Assembly (NCBI RefSeq): GCF_024436435.1
Contig: NZ_JAFMZP010000005.1
Location: 186,001-250,000, forward strand
Origin: Desertivirga xinjiangensis
GTDB lineage: Bacteria; Bacteroidota; Bacteroidia; Sphingobacteriales; Sphingobacteriaceae
Direction of reading: 5' to 3'
Length of the DNA stretch: 64,000 bases
The notes under the pieces are model-generated. The model saw only the letters and a list, made by a program, of their open reading frames with translations. It did no database searches and was not told the DNA's origin. The translations under genes were made by a program, and so were the position numbers. The stretch's first letter is position 1, and every line of letters begins with the position of its first letter. Shown piece by piece: positions 41,964 to 59,397 of this stretch.

Positions 41964-42548
41964 ATGGTTAATCTAACGGGTAGTGGGACAGCAACTTTTG
42001 AGTTTTCGGAAACCAATTATACCATCCTTTTCAATACGTACTGGAAGGGACTGTATGCTATTGCCTATCGTCGTTTGCGTGATGCCGACCTGGCAAAAGA
42101 CATTGTGCAGGACCTGTTTGTTTACTGCTGGCAGCAGCGCGAAACTATCCGGATAAACACTTCCATCGAAGCTTATTTACGTTCTGCCCTGCAATACCGC
42201 CTTATTGCGCACTTCCGGAAACTCGATGTGGAAGACCGTGCTTTTACTTACCTCTACGATCGTATGGTTGAAGTGGAAGCCAGTATTAAGGATAACCTTG
42301 CCGCACAGGATCTGGGCAGAATGCTCGACAAAGAATTTGAGCAGATGCCCGACACCATGCGCGAGATATTTAAATTACGAAGCCGGGATTATTCGGTGAA
42401 CGAAATAGCAGAGAACCTCAATCTGGCTGAGAAAACTGTTCGGAACAACATCACCAGGGGCCTGCAGCAATTACGCACAGCGCTTTCAAAAGAATCCCCG
42501 GAGGATTACTCTACACTCTTTTTTGTACTTTACATTCTGTTAACCTAA
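41964..42548 (+). CDS. ECF RNA polymerase sigma-70 factor (FecI-like)
   Basis: The 194 residues carry sigma region 2 (LFNTYWKGLYAIAYRRLRD, then DIVQDLFVYCW) and region 4 (EIFKLRSRDYSVNEIAENL, then EKTVRNNITRGLQQLR). It is the first gene of a classical ECF sigma - FecR - STN-TonB receptor series. In this scheme ligand binding to the SusC-like receptor signals through its STN domain to FecR, which frees the sigma factor to transcribe the receptor operon. The anti-sigma gene starts 98 bp downstream. Confidence 0.93.
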   Translation: MVNLTGSGTATFEFSETNYTILFNTYWKGLYAIAYRRLRDADLAKDIVQDLFVYCWQQRETIRINTSIEAYLRSALQYRLIAHFRKLDVEDRAFTYLYDRMVEVEASIKDNLAAQDLGRMLDKEFEQMPDTMREIFKLRSRDYSVNEIAENLNLAEKTVRNNITRGLQQLRTALSKESPEDYSTLFFVLYILLT

Positions 42549-42646
42549 CAGTTAAGATTTCTTAATCGATTTTATCGGGACGGATCGCAGAGGTCCTCTA
42601 CTTATCCATAGAAGCGCATCAGATGTTTGGCGCGATCTGCTGATAA

Positions 42647-43630
42647 ATGGATAAAAATAAGTTTAAGCAATTAATGGAAGGGTATCTCCAAGGCGACCTT
42701 TCCAAACCTGATGAGGAGCTGCTACAGCGTTGGTACGCTTCCTTCGGGGAATCAACAACCGGAGTGCCGGGTCTGGAAGATGAGGCTTCTTCAGAGGAAT
42801 TACGGGAAGAGCTTGACAGCCGGATACGGGAGCTGATAGCCATACCGGAGCCTAAAAAAGTTTCCTGGTTCAGAACAAAGGGTTTCCGCTATATGGCTGC
42901 TGCGTCGTTTGCTGCTGTAATCGGCGGTGCTGTCTGGCTGACAACGGGAAGACTGAATAAAAATGCAGATCAGGATATAGCTGCTCAGCATAAGGCTTTT
43001 GACCAGATTGAAACAGGCATCAGGCAAGTTAAACGGGTCATCCTGCCAGATAGTACCACGGTATTCTTAAACTCTAATTCAACATTGAAGATCTCCGCAA
43101 GCTTTGGCAAGGTTCGGCGCGAAGTGTCCCTTAGCGGTGAAGCTTTTTTTGACGTAAAAAGGAATCCGGAAAAGCCTTTTATCATTGCAGCTTCTGGCCT
43201 AAAGGTAAAAGTATTAGGAACTTCTTTTAACGTTAGTGCATACGATGCTTTACCTGATGTAAGGGTTGCCGTGAATACGGGCCTGGTACAGGTAGCGGAT
43301 CAACATAAAGTACTTTCTAACCTAAAACCCAATAAAATGCTGGCTTATAATAAAGAAACCCATGGGTATTCTGTAAAGAATATGAACGCCGGCTCGGTTT
43401 CCTCCTGGCGGGAGGGTATTATCCAGTTAAACCATGCAACGTTCAGGGACTTTCAGCAGGCAATGCTGAACACCTACGGTGTACATGTAGGGTATGCTGA
43501 TGCAGAACCTGCGACCCGGTTCAACTATACCGTTCGCTCAACGCGTCCCCTGGAACAAACGCTGGAACAGTTTTCTGAAGTTGTTGGCAAAAAATACAGG
43601 AAGGAGGGGGATAGGGTAGTTTTCTATTAG
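42647..43630 (+). CDS. FecR-family anti-sigma factor
   Basis: The 327-residue inner-membrane protein has a cytoplasmic sigma-binding part (1-85) and one transmembrane helix near 88-105 (YMAAASFAAVIGGAVWL). A periplasmic FecR domain follows (ILPDSTTVFLNSNSTLKISA, SLSGEAFFDVKRNPEKPF, VKVLGTSFNVSAY). A C-terminal DUF4974 (STN-like) domain closes the protein, from FRDFQQAMLNTYGVHVGYA to the end. It should bind the ECF sigma factor encoded just upstream and receive the signal from the STN domain of the SusC protein encoded next. A small hairpin GCCGC/GCGGC (43646-43660) separates it from the receptor gene. Confidence 0.92.
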   Translation: MDKNKFKQLMEGYLQGDLSKPDEELLQRWYASFGESTTGVPGLEDEASSEELREELDSRIRELIAIPEPKKVSWFRTKGFRYMAAASFAAVIGGAVWLTTGRLNKNADQDIAAQHKAFDQIETGIRQVKRVILPDSTTVFLNSNSTLKISASFGKVRREVSLSGEAFFDVKRNPEKPFIIAASGLKVKVLGTSFNVSAYDALPDVRVAVNTGLVQVADQHKVLSNLKPNKMLAYNKETHGYSVKNMNAGSVSSWREGIIQLNHATFRDFQQAMLNTYGVHVGYADAEPATRFNYTVRSTRPLEQTLEQFSEVVGKKYRKEGDRVVFY

Positions 43631-43844
43631 ATCTCAATAAACAGGGCCGCAAAGAGCGGCACCTGCTCAATATATCAGAATTGGCAGTAATAGATTGGAC
43701 CCTAAGCCTGCAATTCTTCTTTTTAGCAACAAATTAATGTCACCATACCCCCAAATCTAGGGAAAATAACAGGCATTATCAGGTATTATATTTTGTACAA
43801 ATGCTTTTTTCCTGGTTTAGGGTGGTACTAGTTTTTATAATGTT

Positions 43845-46800
43845 ATGCGCTTTTTACTTCATTGGAAGTGGTTTATGAGAGTATCAGGTTTACTTTATTT
43901 TATTCTGGCAATCAGTGCCAATATCCTGCAAGCCTCTACGGGCAAGGCACAGGCCCTGAATAAAAGAATTACAGTAAGTTATACACAGAAGAATCTCTAC
44001 GAGATAATTTTAGATCTTCAGGACAGGGCACAGCTCGATTTCGGCTTTACCCAGGGACTCGGACTGGAAAAGATAAAGGTTCCGAAAGCTGAATTTAACA
44101 ATGAGCGCCTGGAGGATGTCCTGAAGGACCTTTTTAGCAGGCACAATGTGGAATTCACGGAGAGCAACGGAACGGTTATCCTGAACCGCAAACAGCAGCC
44201 GGGCCGTATCGCCGGCCGCGTTACCGACAACAAGGGGGAGCCGCTGGCCGGAGCCAGTTTACGTATTAAAGAACTCAGCAGGAGTTTTACCACTGATTCA
44301 GAAGGGCGATATTCTGTGGCTGTAAATCCGGGTACTTATACGCTGGAAGTTCACTTCATTTCTTTTGGGACACAGGAGCGGAAGCTTGAAGTACAGGCGG
44401 GAAAAACGGTAGAAGCCGTTTTCTCTCTCACGCCGCAGGGAAGTGCTCTAAATGAGGTGGTGGTAATTGGCTATGGTGAAGTTAAGAAGAAGGATCTGAC
44501 AGGTTCTGTGGTCAGTATAGACATCGATAAGATCAAAGATACGCCTGTTCTTTCTGTCGACCTGGCCTTGCAGGGCCGGATTCCGGGTGCGGATATTATG
44601 GCTTCTACGGGTGAACCGGGGGCGCCGGCTTCCATCAGGATCCGCGGAACAAGGTCTATATCGGCCACCAACGAGCCGCTTATAGTGGTCGATGGTGTGA
44701 TCGACGGTATCAGCAACCTTGCCGACATCAATATGGCAGACATCGCTTCGGTAAGTGTATTGAAAGATGCCTCGGCTACCGCGATCTACGGTACCAGGGG
44801 AAGTAACGGGGTGATCATCATTACCACCAAACAGGGCCGGAAAGGAAAAGATGACATCACCGTAAAAAGCGTTGCCGGAATTTCTCAGTTGCCGAGAAGG
44901 CTGGATATTATGAACGCCGCCGAATTTGCGCAGTATCGTAATGATGTGGCTTTCTTTTCAACTTCTGATAATTACGGAGAGATCGGATCAGAAACACCCC
45001 AATCCGCTTACCCATACCCTGACCCGCTATCGCGAGGCAAAGGAACCGACTGGGTAGAGCAGATCTCCAGGACGGCACACTACCATAATCATCTCGTATC
45101 TTTATCGGGGGGAGCCAAAAAAACCAATTATTACGCATCTTTTGCCTATGATAATACGCAGGGTATTATTGACAAAAGCGGCGTAAAGCGTTTTACAGGT
45201 CGTTTAAACCTGGATTACCAGCTGTTTCCCTGGATGAAAACCGGGTATAAGTACAATTATACCGGGCGCGACGACGATCAGAACCTGGTGACGATCGGGG
45301 GAACCAACTGGTGGAGCGCAGCCATTTACCTGAACCCGCTGATCCAGCTGAGGGATAACTTTAACGACCTCTGGTACTCCGGGCAGCGTTTTAATTCGCC
45401 GCGCGCCGTGCTTGACTACGGTGTGATCCGCAATGCAAAAAGAAATGGTAATACGCATACCGGATACGTTGATATTGAGCCATTAAAAGGACTTAAACTA
45501 AACTCACAGTTAACATATTACCAGTACCAGCTCCGCACCTTCCGCTATGAACCGGGAACACTTCCTGCGAAATCGGTAAATGAAGGCGGAACGGCTTACC
45601 GGGGCGAGTTTAATGAATCTAACCTGATGAGTCAGACCACGCTTGCCTGGCTAAAAGACTGGAACCGTACGCATCATGTGGATATGACGGCTGGCTTTAT
45701 CGCTCAGAAAAGAGGGTCGGATAACTTAACCTTACAGGGCGAGGGTTACCAGTCTGATGATGTGACCTGGAATAACATGAATGCTATTCCCGACAAGGAG
45801 AATTATTCAGCCTCTTCTTCAAATACAGAAAAGGTAGCTATGTCATTCCTGGCAAGAGCCAACTACAACTACAAGAGCAAATACTATCTGACGGTTACCG
45901 GTCGCCGCGACGGTGCCTCCAACTTTGCAGCTAACCAGAAATGGGCATTTTTCCCTTCAGCGGCTTTGAAATGGAGTATCAGCAATGAAAACTTCATGAA
46001 GAAAGTGGATTGGATCAATGATCTTTCACTTAGACTATCGGCCGGGCGTACCGGAAATGACGGTATCAGCTCGTACCGCTCACTTTCTGCCCTGGCGTCC
46101 ACTACCGGAGGATACCTGTTCAATGGCTCTCAGCCCGTGGCGTTTTATCCTTCCCGTTTGGCGAGTCAGAACCTATCCTGGGAAAAGACCGATATGTATA
46201 ACATAGCCACCGATATCTCCTTGTTCAAGAACCGTGTGAACATGGTGTTAGAGGGCTATGTATCGTATACCAGCGATCTCTTGCTCGATGTACAGGTTCC
46301 TACACAAACCGGTTACAGTACCCGTTTTGCAAATGTGGGAAAGACCTCCAATAAAGGAGTTGAATTTAGTATCGAAACGAGAAATATTGAAAAACGCAAT
46401 TTCAGCTGGTCCAGTTCTTTTTCTGTATCGCATAATGCGCAGAAGGTAGAGGATATTGGTACGCTTGATTATGTGAACGTGTATGGCGCATATGGCAACA
46501 ACAGCTATATGATGTACGGCTATGTGCAGGATTATCCGCTGAATGCCTTATGGGGATTCAAATATGGCGGAACCTGGAAATCTCAGGAGGAAATAAACCG
46601 GAATAAAATAACGAAAGCTTACGTTTCGGCCTCAAATCCGCAGTATACGCCTGGCTCCGCCCGTTACCTGGATACCAATCACGATGGAGTGTTTAATGAG
46701 CAGGATCTTGTGTATCTGGGGAATGCAGATCCGTATCTGTACGGTGGTCTGCAGAATAACTTCCGTTATAAGAAATTGTCGCTTGGGGTATTTATTGCCT

Positions 46801-47222
46801 ATTCGCTGGGCGGTAAGATCTATAATATTTCTGAGCAATGGATGGGCAACGGCTCGATCAATACCAACCAGTACCGCTTTATGCTGGATGCATGGCACCC
46901 GGTTCGAAATCCCGGTTCTGATCTTCCCCGTGCAGGAAGTGCCGATGCCATTGCCTCAGACAGGATGGTATACGATGCTTCTTTCCTGCGCCTGAAGACT
47001 GTTTCACTCGGCTATACCTTCGATATTCATAAACTAACCCGCAATACGCTAAGGGATGTACAGTTTGTGCTGACGGGAGAAAATCTCCTTCTATGGAAAA
47101 AGTACAATGGTTTTGATCCGGATGTATCATCGGAAAGCGGTACTTCTACCTTGCGCAGGCTCGACATAGGGGCTTACCCTAAACCAAGGACGATCACCGC
47201 CAGCGTGCAGATCAGATATTAA
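43845..47222 (+). CDS. SusC/RagA-family TonB-linked outer-membrane protein with STN signalling domain
   Basis: The 1,125 residues comprise a signal peptide, an STN (secretin/TonB N-terminal) domain at about 40-115, a carboxypeptidase-regulatory-like domain at 124-210 (IAGRVTDNKGEPLAGASLRI), a TonB plug at 215-330 (YGEVKKKDLTGSV, IRIRGTRSISATNEPLIVVD, YGTRGSNGVIIITTKQG) and a 22-strand-type barrel to the C-terminus. The STN domain links it to the FecR protein upstream. It imports the ligand caught by SusD, powered by TonB-ExbBD encoded elsewhere. SusD follows after 38 bp. Internal Met10 is an alternative start. The ligand is unknown; the neighbours suggest a phosphodiester-containing polymer. 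Confidence 0.95.
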   Translation: MRFLLHWKWFMRVSGLLYFILAISANILQASTGKAQALNKRITVSYTQKNLYEIILDLQDRAQLDFGFTQGLGLEKIKVPKAEFNNERLEDVLKDLFSRHNVEFTESNGTVILNRKQQPGRIAGRVTDNKGEPLAGASLRIKELSRSFTTDSEGRYSVAVNPGTYTLEVHFISFGTQERKLEVQAGKTVEAVFSLTPQGSALNEVVVIGYGEVKKKDLTGSVVSIDIDKIKDTPVLSVDLALQGRIPGADIMASTGEPGAPASIRIRGTRSISATNEPLIVVDGVIDGISNLADINMADIASVSVLKDASATAIYGTRGSNGVIIITTKQGRKGKDDITVKSVAGISQLPRRLDIMNAAEFAQYRNDVAFFSTSDNYGEIGSETPQSAYPYPDPLSRGKGTDWVEQISRTAHYHNHLVSLSGGAKKTNYYASFAYDNTQGIIDKSGVKRFTGRLNLDYQLFPWMKTGYKYNYTGRDDDQNLVTIGGTNWWSAAIYLNPLIQLRDNFNDLWYSGQRFNSPRAVLDYGVIRNAKRNGNTHTGYVDIEPLKGLKLNSQLTYYQYQLRTFRYEPGTLPAKSVNEGGTAYRGEFNESNLMSQTTLAWLKDWNRTHHVDMTAGFIAQKRGSDNLTLQGEGYQSDDVTWNNMNAIPDKENYSASSSNTEKVAMSFLARANYNYKSKYYLTVTGRRDGASNFAANQKWAFFPSAALKWSISNENFMKKVDWINDLSLRLSAGRTGNDGISSYRSLSALASTTGGYLFNGSQPVAFYPSRLASQNLSWEKTDMYNIATDISLFKNRVNMVLEGYVSYTSDLLLDVQVPTQTGYSTRFANVGKTSNKGVEFSIETRNIEKRNFSWSSSFSVSHNAQKVEDIGTLDYVNVYGAYGNNSYMMYGYVQDYPLNALWGFKYGGTWKSQEEINRNKITKAYVSASNPQYTPGSARYLDTNHDGVFNEQDLVYLGNADPYLYGGLQNNFRYKKLSLGVFIAYSLGGKIYNISEQWMGNGSINTNQYRFMLDAWHPVRNPGSDLPRAGSADAIASDRMVYDASFLRLKTVSLGYTFDIHKLTRNTLRDVQFVLTGENLLLWKKYNGFDPDVSSESGTSTLRRLDIGAYPKPRTITASVQIRY

Positions 47223-47260
47223 TTTAAAAGAAGTATTAGATAAATCTTGAAGATAAATCA

Positions 47261-48736
47261 ATGAAACGTTTAGTTTTTACATTCATGATGTTCGGACTGG
47301 TTACGGGCTGCTCTTTAGATGAGGTTCCGTCATCCTTTGTGAACACAGGCAATTACTATCAAACCGAGTCGCAGCTGGTTACAGGGCTAAATTCCTGCTA
47401 TATTCCTTTACGGTCTATTTATAATTATACTTACCTCATAGCTACAGAAGGTATAACCGATCTGATGTGGATAGCTTCGGGAACTCTGGATGCCCAGCTT
47501 GATATTTCTCCCGCCCAGCCACGCTTCGGGCAAACCATGTGGACGCAGGGCTACCGCGGAGTGATGTACTGCAATTCCATTATTGAGGCGATAAAACGTG
47601 CTCCTGTAGAAGAGGAGGTAAAGAACAGGCTCCTGGCCGAAGGGATGGTGATGAGGGCCTATTATTACTGGTTCCTTACCTGCACCTTTGGTGATGTACC
47701 TTTTTATACTGAAGACATTGTTAATGTAGAGGTTTTGGAACGGGTTTCAAAGCTGGGACGTATGGATGCCGTGGGAACCCGGAATTACCTGATCGAGGAA
47801 CTGATCAGGTATGTGCCGCATCTGCCGCAGGTGCGTACCAATGATGTGGCCGGTAACAGAAGCGGAGCCGCCATGGGCTGGATGATGATCGGCAAGCTGG
47901 CGCAATGGAATAAACGCTGGGATGTGGCCAGGGACGCTATGGATAAGCTGGAAGCCATCTATGGCGACCTTAGCCAGTATCCTTTGACGGATATTATGCT
48001 GAAGAATAAAAATATCAGGGAGTCGATATTTGAGATCCAGTACCTGTATGATGCTACCGGTCTGCAGGTTACCACCAATTCGGCAGCGATCTGTATGCCG
48101 CCGAGAAATTCGGGTTCCACTTACGATGGTGTGAACATTCCGGAACTGGGGGCGAACGCTACAACCTGGACGCCGCTAAGGCCCACCAACTATTTCTTCC
48201 AGTCGCTTCAGCGCAGGAACAGTGCTGACTTAAGAACTACTTTGAATATGGCCTGGGAATACAATGGTCAGGCTTTCAGAACTGCAACGAATGTTCCATG
48301 GCCCGGACCAAAATTCTGGAGTTTTAACATGTTTAACGTTGCAGACGGTAATAACCAGCGGGTGTTCCGTTATGCTGATGCCTTGCTGATGCAGGCTGAG
48401 AATTATCTGGAACTGGGCAATACTACCAGATCAGTTGAATATTTGGATAAAGTACGTCAGCGGGCAGGTACCGGGTCTTATACTTTCAGAAACCGGGAAG
48501 CGCTTCTTGATGAGATCCAGAGGGAACGTGGACGGGAGCTGCTGGGTGAATATCAACGGAAATATGATATGGTTCGCTGGGGCAACTGGTACCAGATGAC
48601 CTACGACTATACCGACTATGCTACAGTGAAGAACAGGATTCTGCCATGTCATGAGTATTATCCAATCCCGGATATGGAAGTGGTAAAATCAGATTATAAC
48701 CTTGACAATAAAGCTTATGAAGCATATGGAAAATAA
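47261..48736 (+). CDS. SusD/RagB-family nutrient-binding outer-membrane lipoprotein
   Basis: The 491-residue lipoprotein has lipobox VTGC (residues 14-17) and the SusD course: SLDEVPSSFVN at the start, TPR-like helices (EGMVMRAYYYWFLTCTFGDVPFY), and the C-terminal end LLDEIQRERGRELLGEYQRKYDMVRWGNW. SusD forms the lid over the SusC barrel and binds the incoming ligand. The gene end overlaps the next gene by about 11 bp, so coupling to the EEP lipoprotein is tight. Confidence 0.95.
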   Translation: MKRLVFTFMMFGLVTGCSLDEVPSSFVNTGNYYQTESQLVTGLNSCYIPLRSIYNYTYLIATEGITDLMWIASGTLDAQLDISPAQPRFGQTMWTQGYRGVMYCNSIIEAIKRAPVEEEVKNRLLAEGMVMRAYYYWFLTCTFGDVPFYTEDIVNVEVLERVSKLGRMDAVGTRNYLIEELIRYVPHLPQVRTNDVAGNRSGAAMGWMMIGKLAQWNKRWDVARDAMDKLEAIYGDLSQYPLTDIMLKNKNIRESIFEIQYLYDATGLQVTTNSAAICMPPRNSGSTYDGVNIPELGANATTWTPLRPTNYFFQSLQRRNSADLRTTLNMAWEYNGQAFRTATNVPWPGPKFWSFNMFNVADGNNQRVFRYADALLMQAENYLELGNTTRSVEYLDKVRQRAGTGSYTFRNREALLDEIQRERGRELLGEYQRKYDMVRWGNWYQMTYDYTDYATVKNRILPCHEYYPIPDMEVVKSDYNLDNKAYEAYGK

Positions 48737-49694
48737 TAAAACAAGCTTGCTAAACTTCAGAGCTCATATTAGATCTTTCGCTCTTCTTGCACTTGTTGCT
48801 TTTTTGCTGACTGGTATTACAGGTATCACAGGCTGCAAGAAAACCGATGAAACAGTGGCTGCCCCTGAAACAGGGGAATTAAACGATGACACGCTCAGGG
48901 TGATCAGCTATAATATACTGGAAGGAATGAAGAACGATAGGGCTAAAAACTATGACAACTTTGTTGCCTGGGTAAAGTCTTACGATCCTGATATTTTGCT
49001 CTTGCAGGAAGCCAATGGTTTCACACAGGAATCCCTGCAAGGCCTGGCGGCCAGGTTTGACCACCCTTACGTGCTGACCAATTTAAAGGCAACGGATAAT
49101 TATCCAGTGGCTATCACCTCCAGGTTTCCCCTGGAATCACGCAGGAGGGTTACCCTGAATGTCTCTCATGGAGCGATCTTCGCCAAGCTTAGCAATCGTA
49201 ACTTAAACCTGGTAGTTACTCATTTGTGGCCACAAAACTACTGGCATCAGCAGGGTGACGGATTGGGAAATGATTACCGTCTGCAGGAGATAAATACGGT
49301 ACTTGACAGTACCATCCGCAAGTTTCCGCAGGAATCAAACTGGATCCTTGCCGGTGATTTCAATGCTGTCGCAGCAAAAGACTATGAAGCAGGAAATACC
49401 GCCAACAGTTATGTAGTAACAGATGCTATTGAGAGTGCCGGCTTTACCGATGCCATTCACTTTCTGCATGGTTACAAGCAAAAAGGAACGTCTCCTAATT
49501 CTGTAAATAATTCTTTTACTTACCCTTTTACCTATCCGGGACGAAGGATTGACTTTGTTTATGCTACACCAGCTGTGCTTCAGGGCACATTCGCGGCACA
49601 GCCTATTTACGATGATTTTACGAGGCAATACTCGGATCATCCGCCTATGATAATGGATATTGACACCCGCAACATAGCTAAATTCAAATACTAA
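48726..49694 (+). CDS. Endonuclease/exonuclease/phosphatase (EEP) family lipoprotein
   Basis: This is a DNase I-like-fold enzyme of about 322 residues with a lipobox at TGITGC. EEP motifs are all visible: VISYNILEGM (Asn), LLLQEAN (metal-binding Glu), VVTHLWPQ, LAGDFNAVA (Asp and Asn), and the catalytic YSDHPPM (Asp-His). Such enzymes hydrolyse phosphodiester bonds in DNA, RNA, sphingomyelin or inositol phosphates. As a surface lipoprotein inside a SusCD locus, it is a candidate for the depolymerising step. The start at 48726 (MENNKTS) is preferred; upstream in-frame ATGs at 48702 and 48717 lie further inside susD. Confidence 0.9.
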   Translation: MENNKTSLLNFRAHIRSFALLALVAFLLTGITGITGCKKTDETVAAPETGELNDDTLRVISYNILEGMKNDRAKNYDNFVAWVKSYDPDILLLQEANGFTQESLQGLAARFDHPYVLTNLKATDNYPVAITSRFPLESRRRVTLNVSHGAIFAKLSNRNLNLVVTHLWPQNYWHQQGDGLGNDYRLQEINTVLDSTIRKFPQESNWILAGDFNAVAAKDYEAGNTANSYVVTDAIESAGFTDAIHFLHGYKQKGTSPNSVNNSFTYPFTYPGRRIDFVYATPAVLQGTFAAQPIYDDFTRQYSDHPPMIMDIDTRNIAKFKY

Positions 49695-49697
49695 GGT

Positions 49698-52136
49698 ATG
49701 GAAACTTATAACTACTATAAAAAATACGGCTGTATAAAGTTCAGGGGTATTGCCTGCCTGCTATTCTTGTTCCTGTGGGCTTTTAGTGCCTGTAAGCGCG
49801 AGTTTGAAATGGATCTGTCACTTGCCGTGAATTCTAATGAGCTGCACCTGGCAGCAACCGAAGGGAATACGCATATAATGATATATTCTACCGGAAAATG
49901 GACTGCCCGCTTAAGCGAAGAGGCCGACTGGCTTTCTCTCAGTAAACTTGAAGGCCAGGGCAATACGGACATTACCGTAACGTATGCACGGAATTTCGGC
50001 GTACCAAGAAGCGCTACACTTATTCTGACAAAAGGTGCCGAAACCCAGGAAATAAAGATCATACAGGAAGGACTGAACGTGGCACTGCACTTTTCTAAAA
50101 CGAAGTACACGGTTCCCCGGACTTCCCTGCCTGTAAGTCTTTCGCTGGTAGGTGACCTCAAATATAATGTAAGCGATGTTAAGATCGATTACCTGTACGA
50201 TGATGAGACTTCTGAAAAGTGGATAGCTGAGCCAGTGATCACCAGAACTGCCTTTACCTTTCAGACCCGTGAAAATAACAGCGGAAGGGACCGCGCTGTC
50301 CGAATAACACTTAGCCTCAAAGATGGATTTGGTGAAACGCTGACCTTCTACGCCGATGTTCAGCAAACGCAGCAAAATGCCTCGTTTACACAGGAACAGG
50401 AAGAATCTAAATATACTAAACGGGCAGTGAAAGATACCGTGCTCCTTTCAGGAAACACAGGTGCGAGTCTGGCTTATGTAGAAACAAATGTGGTGTATGA
50501 GTCGGGTGCCGGATGGATTGAGCAGGTAGCTTTAGCGAACGACAATATGCTGATCGTAAATCTCCGGGCTAACGATACAGGCTTAGATCGTGCGGCAACT
50601 GTTCAGCTCAGACTTATGAGTAAAGGGGCTGCAATCGCTACCCTTAACCATCGTATCTTCCAGTCGGCAGAGGACTTTGAGTACTATACTTTCAGTGAGC
50701 TTCGCCGCCTGATCCCGGGAGCTTCCGGCGAACTGGCCCTCAATGATCCCCTGAAAGCTTTAGAAGGTGTGGTGATCAGTGATAAGGCGAATCCGAACAT
50801 GGAGACGAATCCGAACATCACGTTTAATTCTATGGACCTGACTGAAACCAACCGCACCGCTTACATCCAGGCAAGTGACGGGAGTTATGGCTTCAGATTG
50901 AAAACAAGCAGTGATGCTGACAATAATTTTATCCGCTACAGCAAAGTTTCAATTGCACTCAACGGCTTAACCATGGTGAAAGAATCTAATCCTGAGCGGT
51001 ATACCATTAAAGGGATTACCGGGGGAAATATCGTTAAGACCACTCCTGGAACAGCCGCAGGCCTTGTATCTAAGGTCAAAACTATAAATGCGCTCAGCGA
51101 TGCTGATATGTACACCTGGGTAACATTCCAGAATACTGAATTCGCAGTTCCTTATGGCAGTTACGCCAATGTAAATGCCGGTTATACCATGAAATCTAAC
51201 TGGAACCAGGCAGGAGCAAGCACCCCCTACACGGATGCGATCCCTTCTGTGATCCGCGATGATAACGGCGGAAAGATGAACCTGCTTGTTAATACTATGG
51301 CTCCCTGGAGCCGGAATGCCCTCCCTGCTGGTTCGGGAACTATTTCGGGCGTTATTGTACACTCTAAGCTAATCCGCTTTGGTGCAGGATCCGGCGATAT
51401 CGGACGGTATGCTGTACGCCCGCTGAATGAGGATGATATTGAACTGGGTGGGGCTGCCAAAGGAAAGGTAATTGCTTTATGGAACTGGTTGAGAAACGGA
51501 ACCGATGTAAGTGCTGCGGCTAGCATTGTAAGAAATGCAGCTGGCAATGTACTTCCGGTCACAGGCAACGGCGAGCTTTCCTGTACTGTTCCCGGCCTGA
51601 CGCCTTCACTTGGTGCGCATCCGGTGTACCAGACAGACCCGGCGTCTAAAGCAGTTCCAAGCAGCTCTTTACAGTACAATACGAGGTGGTGGAATACCAC
51701 AACAAATTCAGGCGAAGGCTTAGTGTTTCGTTTTTCTACTTCGGGGATTACGGGCAGGAATCTCAGCATAAACTTTTCGCAGGGTGGAGGATCTGGTTCT
51801 GCTGCAACACTTAATGTGCCGGTATACTGGGGTGTTGAATACTCCCTGGATGGGCAGAATTATACGAGCCTTGCTAATTCAGACTATGCAGTTCGTCCGC
51901 TTGCTGGTTGGGGATTGAATCTGAACTACGCTGCGCTGGGTCTTAGCACCCACAGTTTTGTTCTGCCGGCCTCATTGCTCGATCAGCAGAATGTGTACGT
52001 AAAGTTGAAAGCAAAGCAAAATATCTTTGGCACCAATTCGCCGAATGGAGCGGAGTCGGGAACGATCACTGCTACGGCTAACAATGCTGCAGTTACTGTC
52101 CGTCTTGGAGTAGTATCGTTCACTTATAATCAGTAG
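49698..52136 (+). CDS. BACON and DUF5689 lipoprotein
   Basis: The 812-residue lipoprotein (lipobox FSAC near residue 32) has an N-terminal BACON-type Ig domain (about 45-130: IYSTGKWTARLSEEADWLSL, then VTYARNFGVPRSATL and IKIIQEG). Further beta-rich domains follow, then a DUF5689 domain at about 335-580 (SELRRLIPGASGELALNDPL, EGVVISDKANPNME, GSGTISGVIVHSKLIRFG, GDIGRYAVRPLNEDDI). The C-terminal jelly-roll-like region covers 585-812. DUF5689 resembles OB-fold domains found with secreted nucleases. It starts 3 bp after the EEP gene. It probably binds the substrate at the cell surface. Confidence 0.85.
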   Translation: METYNYYKKYGCIKFRGIACLLFLFLWAFSACKREFEMDLSLAVNSNELHLAATEGNTHIMIYSTGKWTARLSEEADWLSLSKLEGQGNTDITVTYARNFGVPRSATLILTKGAETQEIKIIQEGLNVALHFSKTKYTVPRTSLPVSLSLVGDLKYNVSDVKIDYLYDDETSEKWIAEPVITRTAFTFQTRENNSGRDRAVRITLSLKDGFGETLTFYADVQQTQQNASFTQEQEESKYTKRAVKDTVLLSGNTGASLAYVETNVVYESGAGWIEQVALANDNMLIVNLRANDTGLDRAATVQLRLMSKGAAIATLNHRIFQSAEDFEYYTFSELRRLIPGASGELALNDPLKALEGVVISDKANPNMETNPNITFNSMDLTETNRTAYIQASDGSYGFRLKTSSDADNNFIRYSKVSIALNGLTMVKESNPERYTIKGITGGNIVKTTPGTAAGLVSKVKTINALSDADMYTWVTFQNTEFAVPYGSYANVNAGYTMKSNWNQAGASTPYTDAIPSVIRDDNGGKMNLLVNTMAPWSRNALPAGSGTISGVIVHSKLIRFGAGSGDIGRYAVRPLNEDDIELGGAAKGKVIALWNWLRNGTDVSAAASIVRNAAGNVLPVTGNGELSCTVPGLTPSLGAHPVYQTDPASKAVPSSSLQYNTRWWNTTTNSGEGLVFRFSTSGITGRNLSINFSQGGGSGSAATLNVPVYWGVEYSLDGQNYTSLANSDYAVRPLAGWGLNLNYAALGLSTHSFVLPASLLDQQNVYVKLKAKQNIFGTNSPNGAESGTITATANNAAVTVRLGVVSFTYNQ

Positions 52137-52193
52137 TATGTTGAAAAGCACACGCGGCACGCGTGCGCTAGCAAAAGTTTAGTTATAATCAGT
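52124..52193. repeat. Direct repeat TTATAATCAGT flanking a GC-rich hairpin
   Basis: TTATAATCAGT occurs at 52124-52134 (the end of the first DUF5689 gene) and again at 52183-52193, 59 bp apart. Between them lies a hairpin GCACACGCG (52148-52156) / CGCGTGCGC (52160-52168) that is much richer in GC than its surroundings. The repeat may mark a small insertion or a slippage duplication; the hairpin may tune expression between the tandem genes. Confidence 0.5.
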
Positions 52194-52220
52194 GCAACTT
52201 TAATTAATGAAAAGATCATT

Positions 52221-54380
52221 ATGAAAATCAATATAAGACTTTTTTTTATTTTGCTGCTCGGACTGGGGGCATGTAAAAAAGACGATGGCGACCTGGTAAG
52301 TATGTCAGAACTGGGAGCCGTGAACGGTGAATATACGGTTTCTAAGGAAGCCGGATCAGTAGCTGTGGAAGTACTTTCTAACGAAAAATACAAGGTATCT
52401 GTTGTCGATAATGCTGACTGGGTGAAGGTTAATGCAGCCGAACTTCAGGGGGATGCAAAGTTCGATGTCAGCTACGATGGCAATGCCGGTTTTCCGCGCA
52501 GGGCCATGCTTGATCTGTTCTCTCCGGGGAGCAACAGGCATGATACCATTGTTATCAAACAGGAGGGAACGCTTGTGCCTGAGCTCGCATTTCCCAAAAC
52601 AAACACCACTGTCCTGGGAGACGGAGGTGAGGTTTTGAGTGCTATCGAAACCAATTTAGAGCTGAAAGATATCCGGGTAGATGTTATTTATCCGAACGGG
52701 GGCGAAGGCGATTGGGTGAACAATGACTTCACGTTCAAATCAGAGAATCAGCAATTTGCTTTTTCCGTAAAACCCAACCCGGACCAGGTAGCATTAAGAA
52801 ATGCCCAACTGCGTTTGTCGTATACCGACGGCTGGGGTGTGGATCATATAACTACGCTTTACCTGCTTCAGGCAAATGCGCAGAACCTTTTTGGCAGCAA
52901 AGCGGAATTTCCGGAAGTCAGGCTTTGGGCCGGAGACAAGATCACTTCGGATATCTTTATTGAAGGGTATGTAGTAAGTGATGCCATGAACAAGAACATG
53001 GGAGACAATGTACAGACAACCCCTACGGCAATCGATTATTCCCGTAACGATAAAACCGTGTACATAGAAAGTCTCGACGGCCGCTATGGTTTCAGGATAG
53101 AGACAGCCACTGCTGCCGACAACATTTTTACCCGCTACAGCAAGGTACAGCTGCTGCTTAAAGGCACCACGGTTGGGCAGAACAACAACCCCCATTCCTA
53201 TAATATCACCGGGGTGACTTCGGGGATGGTGATGAACCTGGAGCAGGGAACGGCTTCAGCACTGCCGCTTAAAGAAAAATATATGTCGGAGTTGACAGAT
53301 GATGATATTTATACTTATGTGACCTTGAAAGACTGTGAGTTTCCGGTTAGAAAAGGTTCCTTTACCCCGGTAAATGAAGGATACTCGCCTTTGTTCAATG
53401 CAAACCGTATCTCCAAGTACCCTTTACTTATGCGCGATATTATGGGGAACAGCATGTTCCTTCTTACTAATATGAATGTTCCTTATCGCAGGGATGGAGC
53501 TATGCTTCCTTACGGTTCTGGTACGGTTTCCGGTATTGTGGTGCATGAGAAGTTCACACGTTTCAGCTATGAAGATGCAGCCAGTGAGGAGGAGTACGGC
53601 AATATTGGCCGCTACCAGATCAGGCATGTAGGTCGCAGCGACATTAAACTGGCAAATGATTTTTCAAATAGTTTCTCAGCGCTGTTAACGGAATACCGTT
53701 ATCCAATTTTATCATCAGGTGCTGCTTTACCTACCGAAGGTAACAATGGACGGATCACCCTTTCTGCCCCCGTTTCAGTTACAGCCACTTCAGACTATAC
53801 TTACCTGGGACCTGTGGGTGCAAGCTTCCTGGGCAACACTAATCAGTATGGCAATGGTGTAATGATTGGCAGCAGCAAGCAAAATGTGGCTACAGCAACC
53901 AACTCCGACGGTAAAGGCGGCGTGTCAGGCAGTGCCCTGAACGGCAGCTGCGTTTGGTGGAATTCGGAAAGGAACCGTGGTGAGGCATGGATCATAGAAG
54001 TTTCAACAGCCAGTATCAGCACCAATAAGCTTTCCCTGCAATTTACTGCCCTGAACTGGGCTTCGGCAGGTGCCGGAACACCGAGGTACTGGAAAGTGGA
54101 ATGGTCTGAACACGGCAATATGGAGGGCAACTGGAACACGATAACTTCTTACACTGTGCCAGATGCGTCAAACTGGTCGAACACCCTGATGCACCAGTTA
54201 CCGGCATTTAAAAATGTGAATGTACCGCTTCCGCTTGATATGTTGGGAAAACCGCGGGTATACATCCGCCTGATCGTAGATCAAAACAAGGCCAGCAGCG
54301 GAACTACTTATGCTTCTGAACCTATTGAAAGGTCGCTGGGCAGTGCGTTGGGGTATGTGGCGATCCGGTATAATAAATAA
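52221..54380 (+). CDS. Second BACON and DUF5689 lipoprotein, paralogue of the preceding gene
   Basis: The 719 residues start with a lipobox (GLGAC, about residues 13-17), followed by a BACON-like domain (NEKYKVSVVDNADWVKV, VSYDGNAGFPRRAMLDL, IVIKQEG). A DUF5689 domain follows (DKITSDIFIEGYVVSDAMNK, TVYIESLDGRYGFRIETA, PYGSGTVSGIVVHEKFTRF, GNIGRYQIRHVGRSDI), and then a C-terminal beta-rich domain (SGSALNGSCVWWNSE, EAWIIEVSTASI, then RYWKVEWSEHGNMEG). Order and motifs match the upstream gene, so the pair arose by duplication, although sequence divergence is large. It probably binds a related ligand. Confidence 0.85.
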   Translation: MKINIRLFFILLLGLGACKKDDGDLVSMSELGAVNGEYTVSKEAGSVAVEVLSNEKYKVSVVDNADWVKVNAAELQGDAKFDVSYDGNAGFPRRAMLDLFSPGSNRHDTIVIKQEGTLVPELAFPKTNTTVLGDGGEVLSAIETNLELKDIRVDVIYPNGGEGDWVNNDFTFKSENQQFAFSVKPNPDQVALRNAQLRLSYTDGWGVDHITTLYLLQANAQNLFGSKAEFPEVRLWAGDKITSDIFIEGYVVSDAMNKNMGDNVQTTPTAIDYSRNDKTVYIESLDGRYGFRIETATAADNIFTRYSKVQLLLKGTTVGQNNNPHSYNITGVTSGMVMNLEQGTASALPLKEKYMSELTDDDIYTYVTLKDCEFPVRKGSFTPVNEGYSPLFNANRISKYPLLMRDIMGNSMFLLTNMNVPYRRDGAMLPYGSGTVSGIVVHEKFTRFSYEDAASEEEYGNIGRYQIRHVGRSDIKLANDFSNSFSALLTEYRYPILSSGAALPTEGNNGRITLSAPVSVTATSDYTYLGPVGASFLGNTNQYGNGVMIGSSKQNVATATNSDGKGGVSGSALNGSCVWWNSERNRGEAWIIEVSTASISTNKLSLQFTALNWASAGAGTPRYWKVEWSEHGNMEGNWNTITSYTVPDASNWSNTLMHQLPAFKNVNVPLPLDMLGKPRVYIRLIVDQNKASSGTTYASEPIERSLGSALGYVAIRYNK

Positions 54381-54445
54381 TTGGGAGTTGTAAAATATAA
54401 GTAATAGTGTTAAGTTCAGAGTAGAAAGTTTTAAGTAAAAAGTTT

Positions 54446-55294
54446 ATGAAAAGAAATATATTTTGTTCCTTATTTATTGTGTTTAGTGTGCTGTGTACAT
54501 TGAACGTGGTGGCTCAGTTGCCAGATAACGCTCCCCTGAGAATGAGGGTGGGTACTTATAATGTTGGACATTTTAACCAGGGCTGGTCTGGCGGGTTTCG
54601 ATTTAATGGCGACCCGGCGTATTCCAAAGAGCAAAGAAAGAGTACTACAGAAAAACAGGTAGCCGCATGGCGTCAGTGGATAGGGGCACAAGGGCTGGAT
54701 TTTCTTTGTGTTCAGGAATGGAACCGGTACTTCGATGCCGACAGTAACTTTAATGCAGAAGACGAACTGCTGAAGCCATACTACAACAATATTTATTTTG
54801 GCAATGAACACAAATGGATATTCAACGGCATCGCTACCAATTACAAGCTGACAAACCTGCGCAAAAAGTATTCGTACGGCGATTACTACGCCCTTATTGG
54901 TGATCTGCGTGTCGGTAAGAAAACCATTACCGTCATCTCCACGCATATTCCCTGGCAAAAAGACTGGCACAAGCCAGCCCTGGATGAACTAATTGCAGAT
55001 CTAAAAAAATATGAACACTTCATTTGTTTTGGCGATATAAACGCCATGGATAAGGAGCAAATGCTTTTCAGGGAGGCTGGGTTTAATATGGCCAACGGCG
55101 GCTACCAGGGATGGTTCGGAACCGCCGGAGGAGGATTGATACTGGAAGGCAGACAGGGTAAAGTTGATTCCAACATCGACAACATCATCACCAGTAAGAA
55201 CATTAAGATCATGAATGTTACTGCTCCGCATACCGGGGTGAATGATTTCGATCATTTGCCGGTTCTTGCAGATCTCATCATAACGGGCCTTTAG
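54446..55294 (+). CDS. Secreted endonuclease/exonuclease/phosphatase (EEP) family enzyme
   Basis: The 282-residue product has a cleavable signal peptide (IVFSVLCTLNVVAQ) rather than a lipobox, so it should be periplasmic or exported free. EEP motifs are VGTYNVGHF, LCVQEWN (Glu), ISTHIPWQ (His), FGDINAMD (Asp and Asn) and DFDHLPVLAD (Asp-His). It is only distantly similar to the EEP lipoprotein of the same operon. One lipid-anchored and one soluble phosphodiesterase suggest stepwise cleavage, outside and then inside the outer membrane. Confidence 0.88.
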   Translation: MKRNIFCSLFIVFSVLCTLNVVAQLPDNAPLRMRVGTYNVGHFNQGWSGGFRFNGDPAYSKEQRKSTTEKQVAAWRQWIGAQGLDFLCVQEWNRYFDADSNFNAEDELLKPYYNNIYFGNEHKWIFNGIATNYKLTNLRKKYSYGDYYALIGDLRVGKKTITVISTHIPWQKDWHKPALDELIADLKKYEHFICFGDINAMDKEQMLFREAGFNMANGGYQGWFGTAGGGLILEGRQGKVDSNIDNIITSKNIKIMNVTAPHTGVNDFDHLPVLADLIITGL

Positions 55295-55333
55295 AAAATT
55301 GTAGTGAGAAGCGCATTAGCTAATGATAATAAG

Positions 55334-56377
55334 ATGAAGAAAAGTTTTAAGATAAGTTTTAAATACCATAGCCTTACAATCCATAAGGTTACCATGTATG
55401 CTTTGCTGGTATGTTTACCCATACTTAGCAGCTGCAGTAAGGACGAATTGCTGGATGGAAGGTCTGACGTGATCCTGGTAACAGAAACCACAGAGAAGAC
55501 CGGCGTACTAACTCAACTGGCGATGCCCCTGGAAGGAGGGAAAGACACCCTGTATATACATTCCGGTCTGGAATTTAATGTTGCTTTTGAAACGGACGAC
55601 AAAGAGGAGTGGATTAAGGTTGAAAGTCTGGAACAGCTTCCGGGCACCGGAACCTCACGGCTTATTCTAAGCATTGCACCACTGCAAGGCAGCTATAACT
55701 TGCGTTCAGGGATGTTGTCAGTTTCTAATAAATCGAAATACCTGGGACACTTTGTGCGCTTATCGCAGGGTTATACAGCTCGATTTGCCGAAACTTTCTC
55801 CTGGTTAAAGTATGGGACATTCGATCCTTTTGATGCTAGCAGGGAGGTTGCTATCCAAAGCTGGAGTACCGCACAGAAACAGTATGGCTGGACCTCAACG
55901 GCTGATGGCGGAGGCCTGGCATATGCTTTCGGGCGTAATGAGCATGTTAAATTGGGTTCTGATCTGGCTGGTGCCGACCTGATTTCTCCAAGAATTGGAG
56001 GAATTGTAAAGGACAGTATCCTGCTTTTGACATTTAACGCTGTTGCACAGGTATCGCGCGCGGGTGAAAAGGATTTGAATAAGCTGACGGTGAGTATCAC
56101 AGAAGGAGGGGACTTTGTGTCGGGCGGCAGATCAGCAGTGGTAGAGGCCGTTTATTTAGATCACCAGTCTTCGATGGCAGATACTAAGATGTGGGATAAT
56201 TCTCTGCATGTGCTTTACATCAAAAAGCCGGATATCGATCCGAATGCGTCAACTATAAAGATCCGCTTTAATACGGGGGGAGATGGGCAGTCAGCTGCTT
56301 CAAACAGGATCTTTATTGACAATGTAAATATACATGTAGTGCACCAGTTTGGAGAAGGGAATATCTTGATCAGGTAG
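55334..56377 (+). CDS. Lipoprotein of unknown family, last gene of the SusCD operon
   Basis: The product of about 347 residues has a hydrophobic leader ending in lipobox LSSC. The start at 55334 (MKKSFKISFKYHS) is preferred over the frame opening at 55304. The N-terminal third is beta-rich, BACON-like in feel (FNVAFETDDKEEWIKVESL, then LRSGMLSVSNKS). The C-terminal two thirds (about 160-340) look like a jelly-roll binding domain (FAETFSWLKYGTFDPFD, DLISPRIGG, TIKIRFNTGGDGQSAASNRI, then FIDNVNIHV), as in choice-of-anchor or carbohydrate-binding modules. I recognise no named family. Position suggests a surface ligand-binding accessory. Confidence 0.7.
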   Translation: MKKSFKISFKYHSLTIHKVTMYALLVCLPILSSCSKDELLDGRSDVILVTETTEKTGVLTQLAMPLEGGKDTLYIHSGLEFNVAFETDDKEEWIKVESLEQLPGTGTSRLILSIAPLQGSYNLRSGMLSVSNKSKYLGHFVRLSQGYTARFAETFSWLKYGTFDPFDASREVAIQSWSTAQKQYGWTSTADGGGLAYAFGRNEHVKLGSDLAGADLISPRIGGIVKDSILLLTFNAVAQVSRAGEKDLNKLTVSITEGGDFVSGGRSAVVEAVYLDHQSSMADTKMWDNSLHVLYIKKPDIDPNASTIKIRFNTGGDGQSAASNRIFIDNVNIHVVHQFGEGNILIR

Positions 56378-56425
56378 CCGCGGGCTTCTGTTTTGATCTG
56401 ACTGGTGTCTTAAAATATGTTTTAG

Positions 56426-56455
56426 AAGGGTGTCCAAATTTGGGCACCCTTTTTT
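56426..56455 (+). terminator. Rho-independent terminator closing the SusCD/EEP operon
   Basis: AAGGGTG (56426-56432) pairs with CACCCTT (56445-56451), extended by CC/GG inside, and is followed by TTTTT. It lies 49 bp after the last lipoprotein gene and sets the 3' end of the operon before apbE. Confidence 0.88.
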
Positions 56456-56609: not shown

Positions 56610-57611
56610 ATGTTAAAATACCTTTTAAGTATCATCATAATTGCCTTGCTCAGTTTTAACAAAAAAGCTGAAATAAGTCGCTGGCGGATCACCGGGTATG
56701 CACAGGGAACTACTTATAGTATTACCTATTATGCAGAAGACAGTTTGGTTAGCAGAAGCGAAGTGGATGATATTTTGAATGGGATTGACAGCTCGCTCTC
56801 CATTTATAAAAGCTACTCTCTTATCAATACAATTAATAATTCAGAAAGGGGTGGGGAGGCCGATAAACATTTAAAAGCAGTAGTGAATAAATCTCTGGAA
56901 GTTTATAAAGAAACAGGAGGCGCCTTTGACATTACTGTTTTTCCCCTGGTTCGTGCCTGGGGATTCGGAACGAAGAGCGTTTCTATCCTTCCTAATGCAG
57001 ATACTATCAAATCAATCCTTCCTTGTGTAGGCTCTGATAAGATCTATTTGGACCAGGGAAGGCTTATTAAAACCAATCCTTGTGTGAAGATCGATGTAAA
57101 TGGGATTGCACAGGGCTATTCGGTTGATAAGCTGGCTGATTACCTGGAACGCAAAAAGATAAACAATTACCTTGTTGAAATTGGCGGTGAGATCCGTGTA
57201 AAAGGACGCAAGTTTCCTGAAAATCAACCAATGTCTATTGGCATCGAAGCTCCGGCAAAATCGAGTACAGACGAACAAGTTATTCAAAAAGTAATCCAAA
57301 TCAATAAAGGGGCAGTAACCACTTCTGGCAATTACAGAAAGTACGTTAAAAACGGCAACAAGAAATTATCACACCTGATAGATCCTAAAACCGGCTATCC
57401 ACTGGATAATGAACTTATCAGTGTAACTGTAATTGCAGACGATGCAATTTCAGCCGATGCATATGATAATGCTTTGATGGGAATGGGCTTAAAAAAGGCC
57501 ATGCAATTTGCAAAGGATCATAAATTGGAGGCTTATTTCATCTATTATAATTCTAAGAAACAAATTACCGATACAGCAACCACTGGCTTCTATACTTTTA
57601 TAAGAAATTGA
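56610..57611 (+). CDS. apbE: FAD:protein FMN transferase (ApbE family)
   Basis: The 333 residues begin with an N-terminal membrane or signal segment (LKYLLSIIIIALLSF). ApbE motifs are present: GAFDITVFPLVRAWGFG, KIDVNGIAQGYSVDKLA (FAD and substrate binding), EIGGEIRVKG, TSGNYRKY, HLIDPKTGYPL and ISADAYDNALMGMG. In the last motif the usual metal-site Thr (A.AT.) is replaced by Asn, a variation worth noting. The enzyme attaches FMN through a phosphoester to a Ser or Thr of extracytoplasmic flavoproteins such as NqrB/C, RnfG or FMN-bind proteins. No such target is adjacent. It has its own promoter region after the operon terminator. Confidence 0.92.
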   Translation: MLKYLLSIIIIALLSFNKKAEISRWRITGYAQGTTYSITYYAEDSLVSRSEVDDILNGIDSSLSIYKSYSLINTINNSERGGEADKHLKAVVNKSLEVYKETGGAFDITVFPLVRAWGFGTKSVSILPNADTIKSILPCVGSDKIYLDQGRLIKTNPCVKIDVNGIAQGYSVDKLADYLERKKINNYLVEIGGEIRVKGRKFPENQPMSIGIEAPAKSSTDEQVIQKVIQINKGAVTTSGNYRKYVKNGNKKLSHLIDPKTGYPLDNELISVTVIADDAISADAYDNALMGMGLKKAMQFAKDHKLEAYFIYYNSKKQITDTATTGFYTFIRN

Positions 57612-58964: not shown

Positions 58965-58965
58965 C

Positions 58966-59397
58966 ATGACAAAATATAAGGATCTTAATTGTATTCTCCT
59001 GATAGACGATGATTTAGCTACTAATTTTCTTCATCGAAAAGTAGTGCAAACTACAGGGATCGAGGTGCATGTTCAAACGACCACTTCAGGAAGGGACGCA
59101 CTCGATTTTTTATGTGAGTTAAGTGCGTATCAGAATACGCCCGAAATTCCAAGGCCGGGAATCATTTTCCTTGACATCAATATGCCGGAAATGAATGGCT
59201 GGGAATTTCTGGAAGAATATGATAAACTGAAAGATGAACAAAAAGCAGAAATCGTTGTGGTTATGCTAACCACGTCGTTAAATCCTGATGATGAAGCTCG
59301 TGCATTTTCAAATAAAAACATAACCACTTTTTTAAACAAACCGCTTAAACCGGAGGTGCTGGAAGAACTAGCTGAAAAATTTTTTACAACTAAATAA
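58966..59397 (+). CDS. Single-domain response regulator (CheY-like)
   Basis: This 143-residue receiver domain has no output domain. The acidic pocket is LLIDDD, the phospho-acceptor is Asp70 in FLDINMPEMNG, the conserved Thr is in MLTTS and the Lys is Lys125 in NKPLKP. It is co-transcribed with the PAS kinase (1-bp gap). Such pairs usually feed a phosphorelay or bind another protein, because no DNA-binding domain is present. Confidence 0.93.
   Translation: MTKYKDLNCILLIDDDLATNFLHRKVVQTTGIEVHVQTTTSGRDALDFLCELSAYQNTPEIPRPGIIFLDINMPEMNGWEFLEEYDKLKDEQKAEIVVVMLTTSLNPDDEARAFSNKNITTFLNKPLKPEVLEELAEKFFTTK

Follow-up and report, generated by a model that had tools for sequence, protein, structure and literature searches.

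A SusCD locus with two EEP-family enzymes, DUF5689 lipoproteins and its own ECF sigma/FecR pair in Desertivirga xinjiangensis, with a phosphate-bearing polymer as its candidate substrate

SusCD loci are frequently encountered without any carbohydrate-active enzyme (CAZyme): a 2019 survey put the share at 52%, and its passage on SusCD loci lacking CAZymes, sulfatases and peptidases records phosphodiesterases of families PF00149 and PF01663 in 576 of 14,713, with nucleic acids suggested as the substrate (Lapebie et al., 2019; PMC6499787). Flavobacterium offers a second precedent in PUSI and PUSII, which the passage describing them presents as SusCD-like pairs lying beside phosphodi- or monoesterases and induced by phosphate depletion (PMC8115612). 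Here we describe a locus that shares features with both, found in a 64,000-nucleotide stretch of Desertivirga xinjiangensis DNA (contig NZ_JAFMZP010000005.1, positions 186,001 to 250,000), the whole of which we call the window. At 41964-56377 of the window, nine open reading frames (ORFs), all on the forward strand and followed by a strong hairpin, join an extracytoplasmic function (ECF) sigma factor, a FecR protein and a SusC/SusD pair to two enzymes of the EEP superfamily and three further lipoproteins. We tentatively suggest that the substrate of this SusCD locus, which would also induce it, is a phosphate-bearing glycan or a polyol-phosphate polymer, either teichoic-acid-like or some other phosphoglycan. 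The elements of the locus are as follows.

41964..42548, + strand: ECF sigma factor (Pfam Sigma70_r2/r4_2; TIGR02985 119.4 bits, slightly below the cut-off of 126.4)
42647..43630, + strand: FecR anti-sigma factor (Pfam FecR, E 2.5e-15; FecR_C, 4.2e-6)
43845..47222, + strand: SusC TonB-dependent transporter with an N-terminal, STN-like extension (CarboxypepD_reg and Plug; TIGR04056 SusC/RagA, 793 bits)
47261..48736, + strand: SusD lipoprotein (SusD_RagB, 91 bits; lipobox VTGC)
48717..49694, + strand: EEP1, EEP-family lipoprotein, predicted surface enzyme (PF03372, E 3.7e-18, 66.5 bits, above the cut-off of 24.5; lipobox ITGC)
49698..52136, + strand: D1, BACON-DUF5689 lipoprotein, predicted ligand binder (BACON 2.5e-13, DUF5689 4.2e-11)
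52221..54380, + strand: D2, BACON-like/DUF5689 lipoprotein (DUF5689 6.7e-10; lipobox LGAC; also supported by alignment and model)
54446..55294, + strand: EEP2, soluble EEP enzyme, predicted periplasmic (PF03372, 29.9 bits, above the same cut-off; no lipobox)
55334..56377, + strand: LP9, lipoprotein without a Pfam family, predicted ligand binder (lipobox LSSC)
56424..56453, + strand: terminator-like hairpin with T run, assessed by folding

The arrangement is conserved. With D2 as the locus marker, the window locus and 33 others were read (L013, L076-L087, L130-L149); three of these, cut at contig ends, were dropped (L140, L148, L149), L137 was kept although it is cut inside SusC, and all counts out of 31 include the window unless its 30 relatives are named. 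The order SusC-SusD-EEP-(D1)-D2 is found in 30/31 loci, the exception being L081 (SusC-SusD-D2-EEP2), a constancy which argues that the locus did not come together by chance. Some EEP gene is present in all 31 and stands directly after SusD in 30, while 27 have sigma and FecR ahead of these genes in one run. Three types can be told apart: type 1, that of the window, with D1 (11 loci, EEP2 being present in ten); type 2, without D1 (13 loci); and type 3 (seven loci), whose SusC is a remote relative of that in the window (212-223 bits for the four scored). The residues of the EEP superfamily that we take to be catalytic (Asn, Glu, His, Asp, Asn, Asp and Asp-His) are all present in EEP1 and EEP2, and these eight positions are invariant in 32 EEP1-like and 13 EEP2 sequences. 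An earlier note on this DNA, made from the letters alone, had proposed a self-regulated SusCD locus, with a sigma factor and FecR and with EEPs as the core enzymes of import, and had called for a gene-order search in relatives; the recurrence of the order, of the regulators and of intact EEPs upholds this picture.

Glycan enzymes recur beside the relatives, standing in the same gene run in 6/30 of them. A CE2 esterase follows D2 in L077 (at 8 bp, the position that EEP2 takes in sister loci) and in L087 (at 83 bp); a GxDLY-GDSL esterase and a glycoside hydrolase of family 20 (GH20) occur together in L079 and L142 and in the reverse order in L146; and the run of L083 reads EEP, unassigned protein, GH20. 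GH20 is thus confined to four loci, and 27/31 are without a recognised glycosidase in the run. A genome of another family (G409) has the order LP9-D2-SusC-SusD-EEP1-D1-D2-EEP2, with a same-strand GH20 gene lying 309 bp upstream. GxDLY genes are scarce, with 24 in 15 genomes, and six of these lie in SusC-EEP runs (L079, L142, L146, L054, L159, L165). If each genome is taken to have 20-60 SusD loci, finding GxDLY in 3/13 type 2 loci carries a P of 0.08 to 0.004, which on that assumption is suggestive. The neighbours of D2 loci that were scanned with Pfam included no recognisable gene of nucleotide or nucleoside catabolism; they were chosen flanking ORFs of L013, L014, L043, L044, L077-L081, L083, L084, L086 and L087, together with ten ORFs in or after the runs of the window, L131, L138, L146 and L147. 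The Bacteroidales loci were scanned in part as well, and the remaining flanks of L130-L149 were compared with a reference set only. The ten ORFs comprised ApbE, kinases, regulators, DUF4440, a Na/H exchanger, a GMC oxidoreductase and a gluconate-dehydrogenase subunit, with neither glycan hydrolases nor nucleotide enzymes by Pfam.

More distant SusCD-EEP sets keep similar company. The source genome itself holds a second locus (L054, G000:C19:282000-297000) that reads FecR-SusC-SusD-EEP-EEP-GxDLY, followed by a protein with a weak type IX secretion system (T9SS) tail match and by GH92; its EEPs share 27-29% identity with EEP1, and a further locus, L159, likewise brings together SusC, two EEP genes and GxDLY. 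Among the Bacteroidales, L026 (7909-10353) and L033 (13000-15438) encode, directly after a type 3 SusCD pair and an EEP, a BACON-Glug protein with a C-terminal NAGPA domain, which is a phosphodiester-glycosidase domain. The run of L030 (1-15922) combines a D1-like protein, Glug-repeat proteins, two EEPs, a PF01663 phosphodiesterase, a glycerol-3-phosphate dehydrogenase, an MFS transporter and a GDPD-GH2 protein, and L028 and L038 keep this arrangement from the EEP-BNR gene onward. L036 (3258-20801) and L037 carry type 3 SusCD, EEP, LP9 and a window-type SusC in a single same-strand run, and may possibly represent two-transporter loci for one substrate.

Because a hexosaminidase, acyl esterases, a phosphodiester glycosidase and glycerol-phosphate enzymes surround related SusCD-EEP sets, we lean toward a phosphate-bearing glycan or polyol-phosphate polymer as the substrate. 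Teichoic acid with N-acetylhexosamine and ester decorations is one polymer of such a kind. The lipoproteins D1, D2 and LP9 would hold the polymer at the cell surface, where the EEP1 lipoprotein would cut it at phosphodiesters or strip phosphate from it; SusD and SusC would then import the fragments with TonB energy, and soluble EEP2 would continue the breakdown in the periplasm. The N-terminal domain of SusC would act through FecR on the ECF sigma factor to switch the locus on. The dedicated sigma/FecR pair argues for such induction by substrate rather than for a PUS-like response to phosphate depletion, and the hexosaminidase or esterase of some relatives may have been added for decorated forms of the polymer. 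A bolder and more doubtful version of the proposal would make EEP a backbone-cutting depolymerase and DUF5689 a new class of polymer binder, with Bacteroidota feeding on the phosphodiester polymers (teichoic acids, phosphoglycans) of other cells' envelopes.

A number of findings weigh against a phosphoglycan. No glycan enzyme was recognised in the gene run of 25/31 loci (some unassigned run members were not Pfam-scanned), and by type these enzymes occur in only 1/11 loci of the window's own type, in 4/13 of type 2 and in 1/7 of type 3. GH20 is common (2-12 matches per genome in 15 genomes), so that we rejected its association alone as weak evidence; 18/24 GxDLY genes are without an EEP match in the stretch read; and L131-L135, like L143-L145 with L147, are near-duplicates with scores too similar for them to count as independent. 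NAGPA and GDPD are linked to the locus indirectly, the genes of L030 being only 26-32% alike to those of the window and its D1-like protein (30% over 383 residues) being cut by the locus edge and without a Pfam match. Other findings point instead to feeding on nucleic acids, in which EEP1 would be a surface DNase or RNase, D1, D2 and LP9 would bind DNA, SusCD would import oligonucleotides and EEP2 would finish them in the periplasm. The best matches of an EEP1 profile to PDB sequences are the DNA endonucleases LINE-1, ExoIII/Mth212 and APE1, a group that Foldseek also ranked first with the predicted EEP1 model (pLDDT, the model's confidence score, 78.7), and the top structural row is NExo, a DNA 3' phosphatase/exonuclease of Neisseria (Z 23.2). 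Two distant EEP relatives with no SusCD seen lie between the purine-synthesis genes GATase_5/AIRS_C and AIRS (L019, 6307-12029, from an Alistipes metagenome-assembled genome) and near a UvrA-type gene (L020). Further, a Riemerella DUF5689 protein and its neighbour RA0C_RS04915 are described, in the passage that concerns them, as needed for natural transformation (PMC8459023), and nucleic acids are what Lapebie et al. (2019), in the passage cited above, propose for some of the SusCD loci that have phosphodiesterases but no CAZymes (PMC6499787). The fold comparison, however, does not single out one group: the 50 matches listed for the EEP1 model range over Z 21.5-23.2 and take in nucleases, sphingomyelinase, Nocturnin and BT3783, with Nocturnin at 22.5, LINE-1 at 22.2, ExoIII at 22.0, APE1 and human neutral sphingomyelinase (8j2f) at 21.9, and BT3783 (4c1r) at 21.7. 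Sphingomyelinase, Nocturnin and BT3783 are therefore within 1 Z of ExoIII, LINE-1 and APE1, and 0.7-1.5 below the top row. The nuclease matches in sequence are at superfamily level only, with xth at 41 bits against a cut-off of 99; PHROGs returned a single weak endonuclease match to EEP1 (E 1e-4), PDB searches with the single EEP1 and EEP2 sequences found no match, and the EEP2 profile found nothing meaningful there. Three other DUF5689 genes of the source genome (L051, L052, L053) lie in TonB-receptor loci without an EEP match, their other neighbours being mostly unscanned. The earlier note had taken extracellular nucleic acid as the simplest substrate and had named glycan enzymes co-regulated with the locus elsewhere as evidence to the contrary. 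What the relatives offer is co-location in 6/30 and not demonstrated co-regulation; this co-location, together with the lack of recognised nucleotide or nucleoside catabolism genes near D2 loci, weakens the nucleic-acid substrate, which we now consider rather unlikely.

BT3783 of Bacteroides thetaiotaomicron has the EEP fold and is, by its entry title, a mannosyl-6-phosphatase; an EEP enzyme therefore need not be a phosphodiesterase. This opens a second alternative, in which the EEPs are phosphomonoesterases trimming phosphate decorations while CAZymes encoded at other places in the genome cut the glycan backbone. The GH92 gene of the EEP-EEP locus L054 and the 12 GH20 matches in the source genome, one of them below the cut-off, would suit it. 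PULs (polysaccharide utilization loci) often carry a surface backbone-cutting enzyme right after SusD, and that slot is occupied by an EEP in 30/31 loci, a lipoprotein in the window; with no glycosidase recognised in the run of 27/31 besides, we hold phosphate trimming to be unlikely. Phospholipid, sphingolipid or inositol head groups, or glycerophosphodiesters, with EEP1 acting like a sphingomyelinase or phospholipase C, would accord with the closeness in fold of human neutral sphingomyelinase and with the pairing of EEP with glycerol-3-phosphate dehydrogenase, MFS and GDPD in L030, L028 and L038. Such small molecules would nonetheless hardly need SusCD and three binding lipoproteins, GH20 and acyl esterases beside relatives would suit a polymer better, and the FA_desaturase genes near L081 and L084 are more than 500 bp away and apparently unrelated, making lipid head groups very unlikely. 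We tried the fold as a guide to substrate and rejected it: NExo stands 1.3-1.5 Z above sphingomyelinase and BT3783, but ExoIII, LINE-1 and APE1 do not stand clear above them. As modelled, the fold matches nuclease and sphingomyelinase alike, and the EEP fold alone settles neither diesterase versus monoesterase activity nor the substrate.

The gene calls behind the phosphoglycan proposal are largely as first described. The nine same-strand genes and the terminal hairpin hold, as do the tiny gaps from susC onward (38 bp between susC and susD, 3 to 84 bases for the rest), with larger gaps of 98 and 214 bases around fecR. The most likely start of EEP1 is ATG 48717 or 48726 and not TTG 48702, and the gene overlaps the 3' end of susD by 11-20 bases; the LP9 ORF opens with GTG at 55304 and has an ATG at 55334. 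Lipoboxes were found by pattern in SusD, EEP1, D2 and LP9, with none in EEP2, whereas that of D1 (FSAC) was read by eye, the pattern match in D1 being spurious. Promoter and terminator scans of the locus gave nothing above shuffles; the hairpin was assessed by folding (-21.6 kcal/mol, z -3.76; equalled by 1/200 shuffles). Searches of the nine proteins with Pfam and NCBIfam (E up to 0.1) yielded no glycoside hydrolase, lyase, carbohydrate esterase or peptidase, so the claimed absence of such enzymes stands, and the locus does not qualify as a CAZyme-defined classical PUL. Adjacent SusC and SusD with neighbouring lipoproteins, presumably at the surface, do make it a SusCD utilisation locus, and sigma, FecR and receptor follow in the order of an ECF/FecR-regulated TonB system. 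Two domain assignments of the earlier note hold in part. Its STN-SusC is indeed a SusC, but STN has no Pfam score in the window protein and appears in orthologues only, weakly in two (E 6e-4 and 9e-3) and above the cut-off in one type 2 SusC. Its second BACON-DUF5689 protein, D2, has DUF5689, but BACON is not scored there by Pfam; the Sphingobacterium chuzhouense orthologue reaches 24.9 bits against a cut-off of 25, and residues 30-118 of the D2 model align structurally with the N-terminal portion of BoGH5 (3zmr, Z 13.8, root-mean-square deviation 1.8 over 86 residues). The nearest solved structures for SusC and SusD are in the same entry, 9sje (626 and 83 bits), whose proteins are named only as homologs and therefore give no substrate hint. 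On the 3' side of the hairpin lie an ApbE family protein (56610-57611) and a PAS histidine kinase with a response regulator (57858-59397), and the contig has two GH20 matches some 12 kb downstream of where the locus ends (G000:C22:254311-257455).

The whole-protein D2 model (pLDDT 68) finds its matches mainly through the N-terminal immunoglobulin (Ig)/BACON part, searching PDB sequences with either D2 or the DUF5689 domain brought up nothing meaningful, and we assign no fold to DUF5689. DUF5689 was considered as a DNA marker by way of an OB-type nucleic-acid fold and rejected, since no OB-fold entry is among the matches listed and the model matched through its Ig/BACON part; the Pfam model of DUF5689 also scores in the Bacillus subtilis control. 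LP9 has no Pfam match and is not a T9SS_DNase_Rie protein (NF052644: 19.2 bits, partial, against a curated 260); related genes in type 1 relatives stand at the locus end or before sigma. In L051 and L053 the DUF5689 lipoprotein comes after a lipoprotein of 285-287 aa.

The locus is uncommon, and its distribution is patchy. A match to EEP1 at E <= 1e-30 is present in 3/61 genomes of the family, and one to D2 at 1e-20 in 2/395 genomes of the class (the same two by profile) and at 1e-40 in 13/251 genomes of the family; SusC at 1e-250 was found in 1/395 genomes of the phylum, each of these counts including the source genome. By profile at 1e-60, D2 occurs in 20/93 genomes of Sphingobacterium (g16) and in 8/145 of a second genus (g13). 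The window SusC shares 67-68% identity with two Sphingobacteriaceae orthologues and 51-55% with five from Bacteroidales; Parapedobacter composti (G045) and S. chuzhouense (G919), both Sphingobacteriaceae, are among the relatives within the family. The Bacteroidales loci L015, L021, L031, L032 and L036 keep SusC, SusD, a D1-like protein and D2, with EEP before SusC and not after SusD, and in L037 the stretch ends inside SusD. The ORF lists omit ORFs that lie under longer overlapping ones, and the SusD genes of L032 and L036 were found by tblastn. SusC of L139 is split into two adjacent ORFs (638 and 549 aa) and may be interrupted.

These results offer a testable core for one group of CAZyme-free SusCD loci: an EEP fixed in place between SusD and a DUF5689 protein. 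Several genera and no fewer than three SusCD subtypes have this module, and related sets occur in Bacteroidales. Were the substrate a phosphoglycan, the module would provide a route for feeding on the envelope polymers of neighbours; with a nucleic acid as substrate, it would match the SusCD importers of nucleic acids that the 2019 survey proposed in the passage already mentioned (PMC6499787).

Each of the known systems resembles the locus in part. With the classical PUL it shares SusC, SusD, surface-type lipoproteins, a sigma/anti-sigma pair, an STN-like SusC extension and a single strand, and differs in that its recognised enzymes are EEP-family proteins and not CAZymes. The same is true of 25/31 loci, in keeping with the earlier view of an uptake system not defined by CAZymes. 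BT3783 has the EEP fold in common with EEP1, comes from a glycan-degrading Bacteroides and acts, per its deposition, on mannose phosphate; we presume that it belongs to a yeast-mannan PUL, for which a literature search found no confirming paper. The second locus of the source genome, L054, also places EEP genes after SusCD, with a SusD of the SusD-like_2 family, GH92 and an esterase, and no DUF5689 protein seen. PUSI and PUSII likewise have phosphoesterases in place of CAZymes, but, in the passage describing them, these belong to other families and are predicted to be periplasmic, whereas the window locus has its own ECF sigma/FecR pair (PMC8115612). The CAZyme-free loci of Lapebie et al. (2019) are alike in holding phosphodiesterases, and unlike in that the families counted were PF00149 and PF01663; the passage concerned names neither EEP (PF03372) nor DUF5689 (PMC6499787). 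A description of a SusCD-EEP-DUF5689 locus was not found in the open-access full texts searched. While CAZyme-free SusCD loci with phosphodiesterases are already known, the EEP/DUF5689 module under a dedicated ECF sigma/FecR pair appears to be a form of them not described before.

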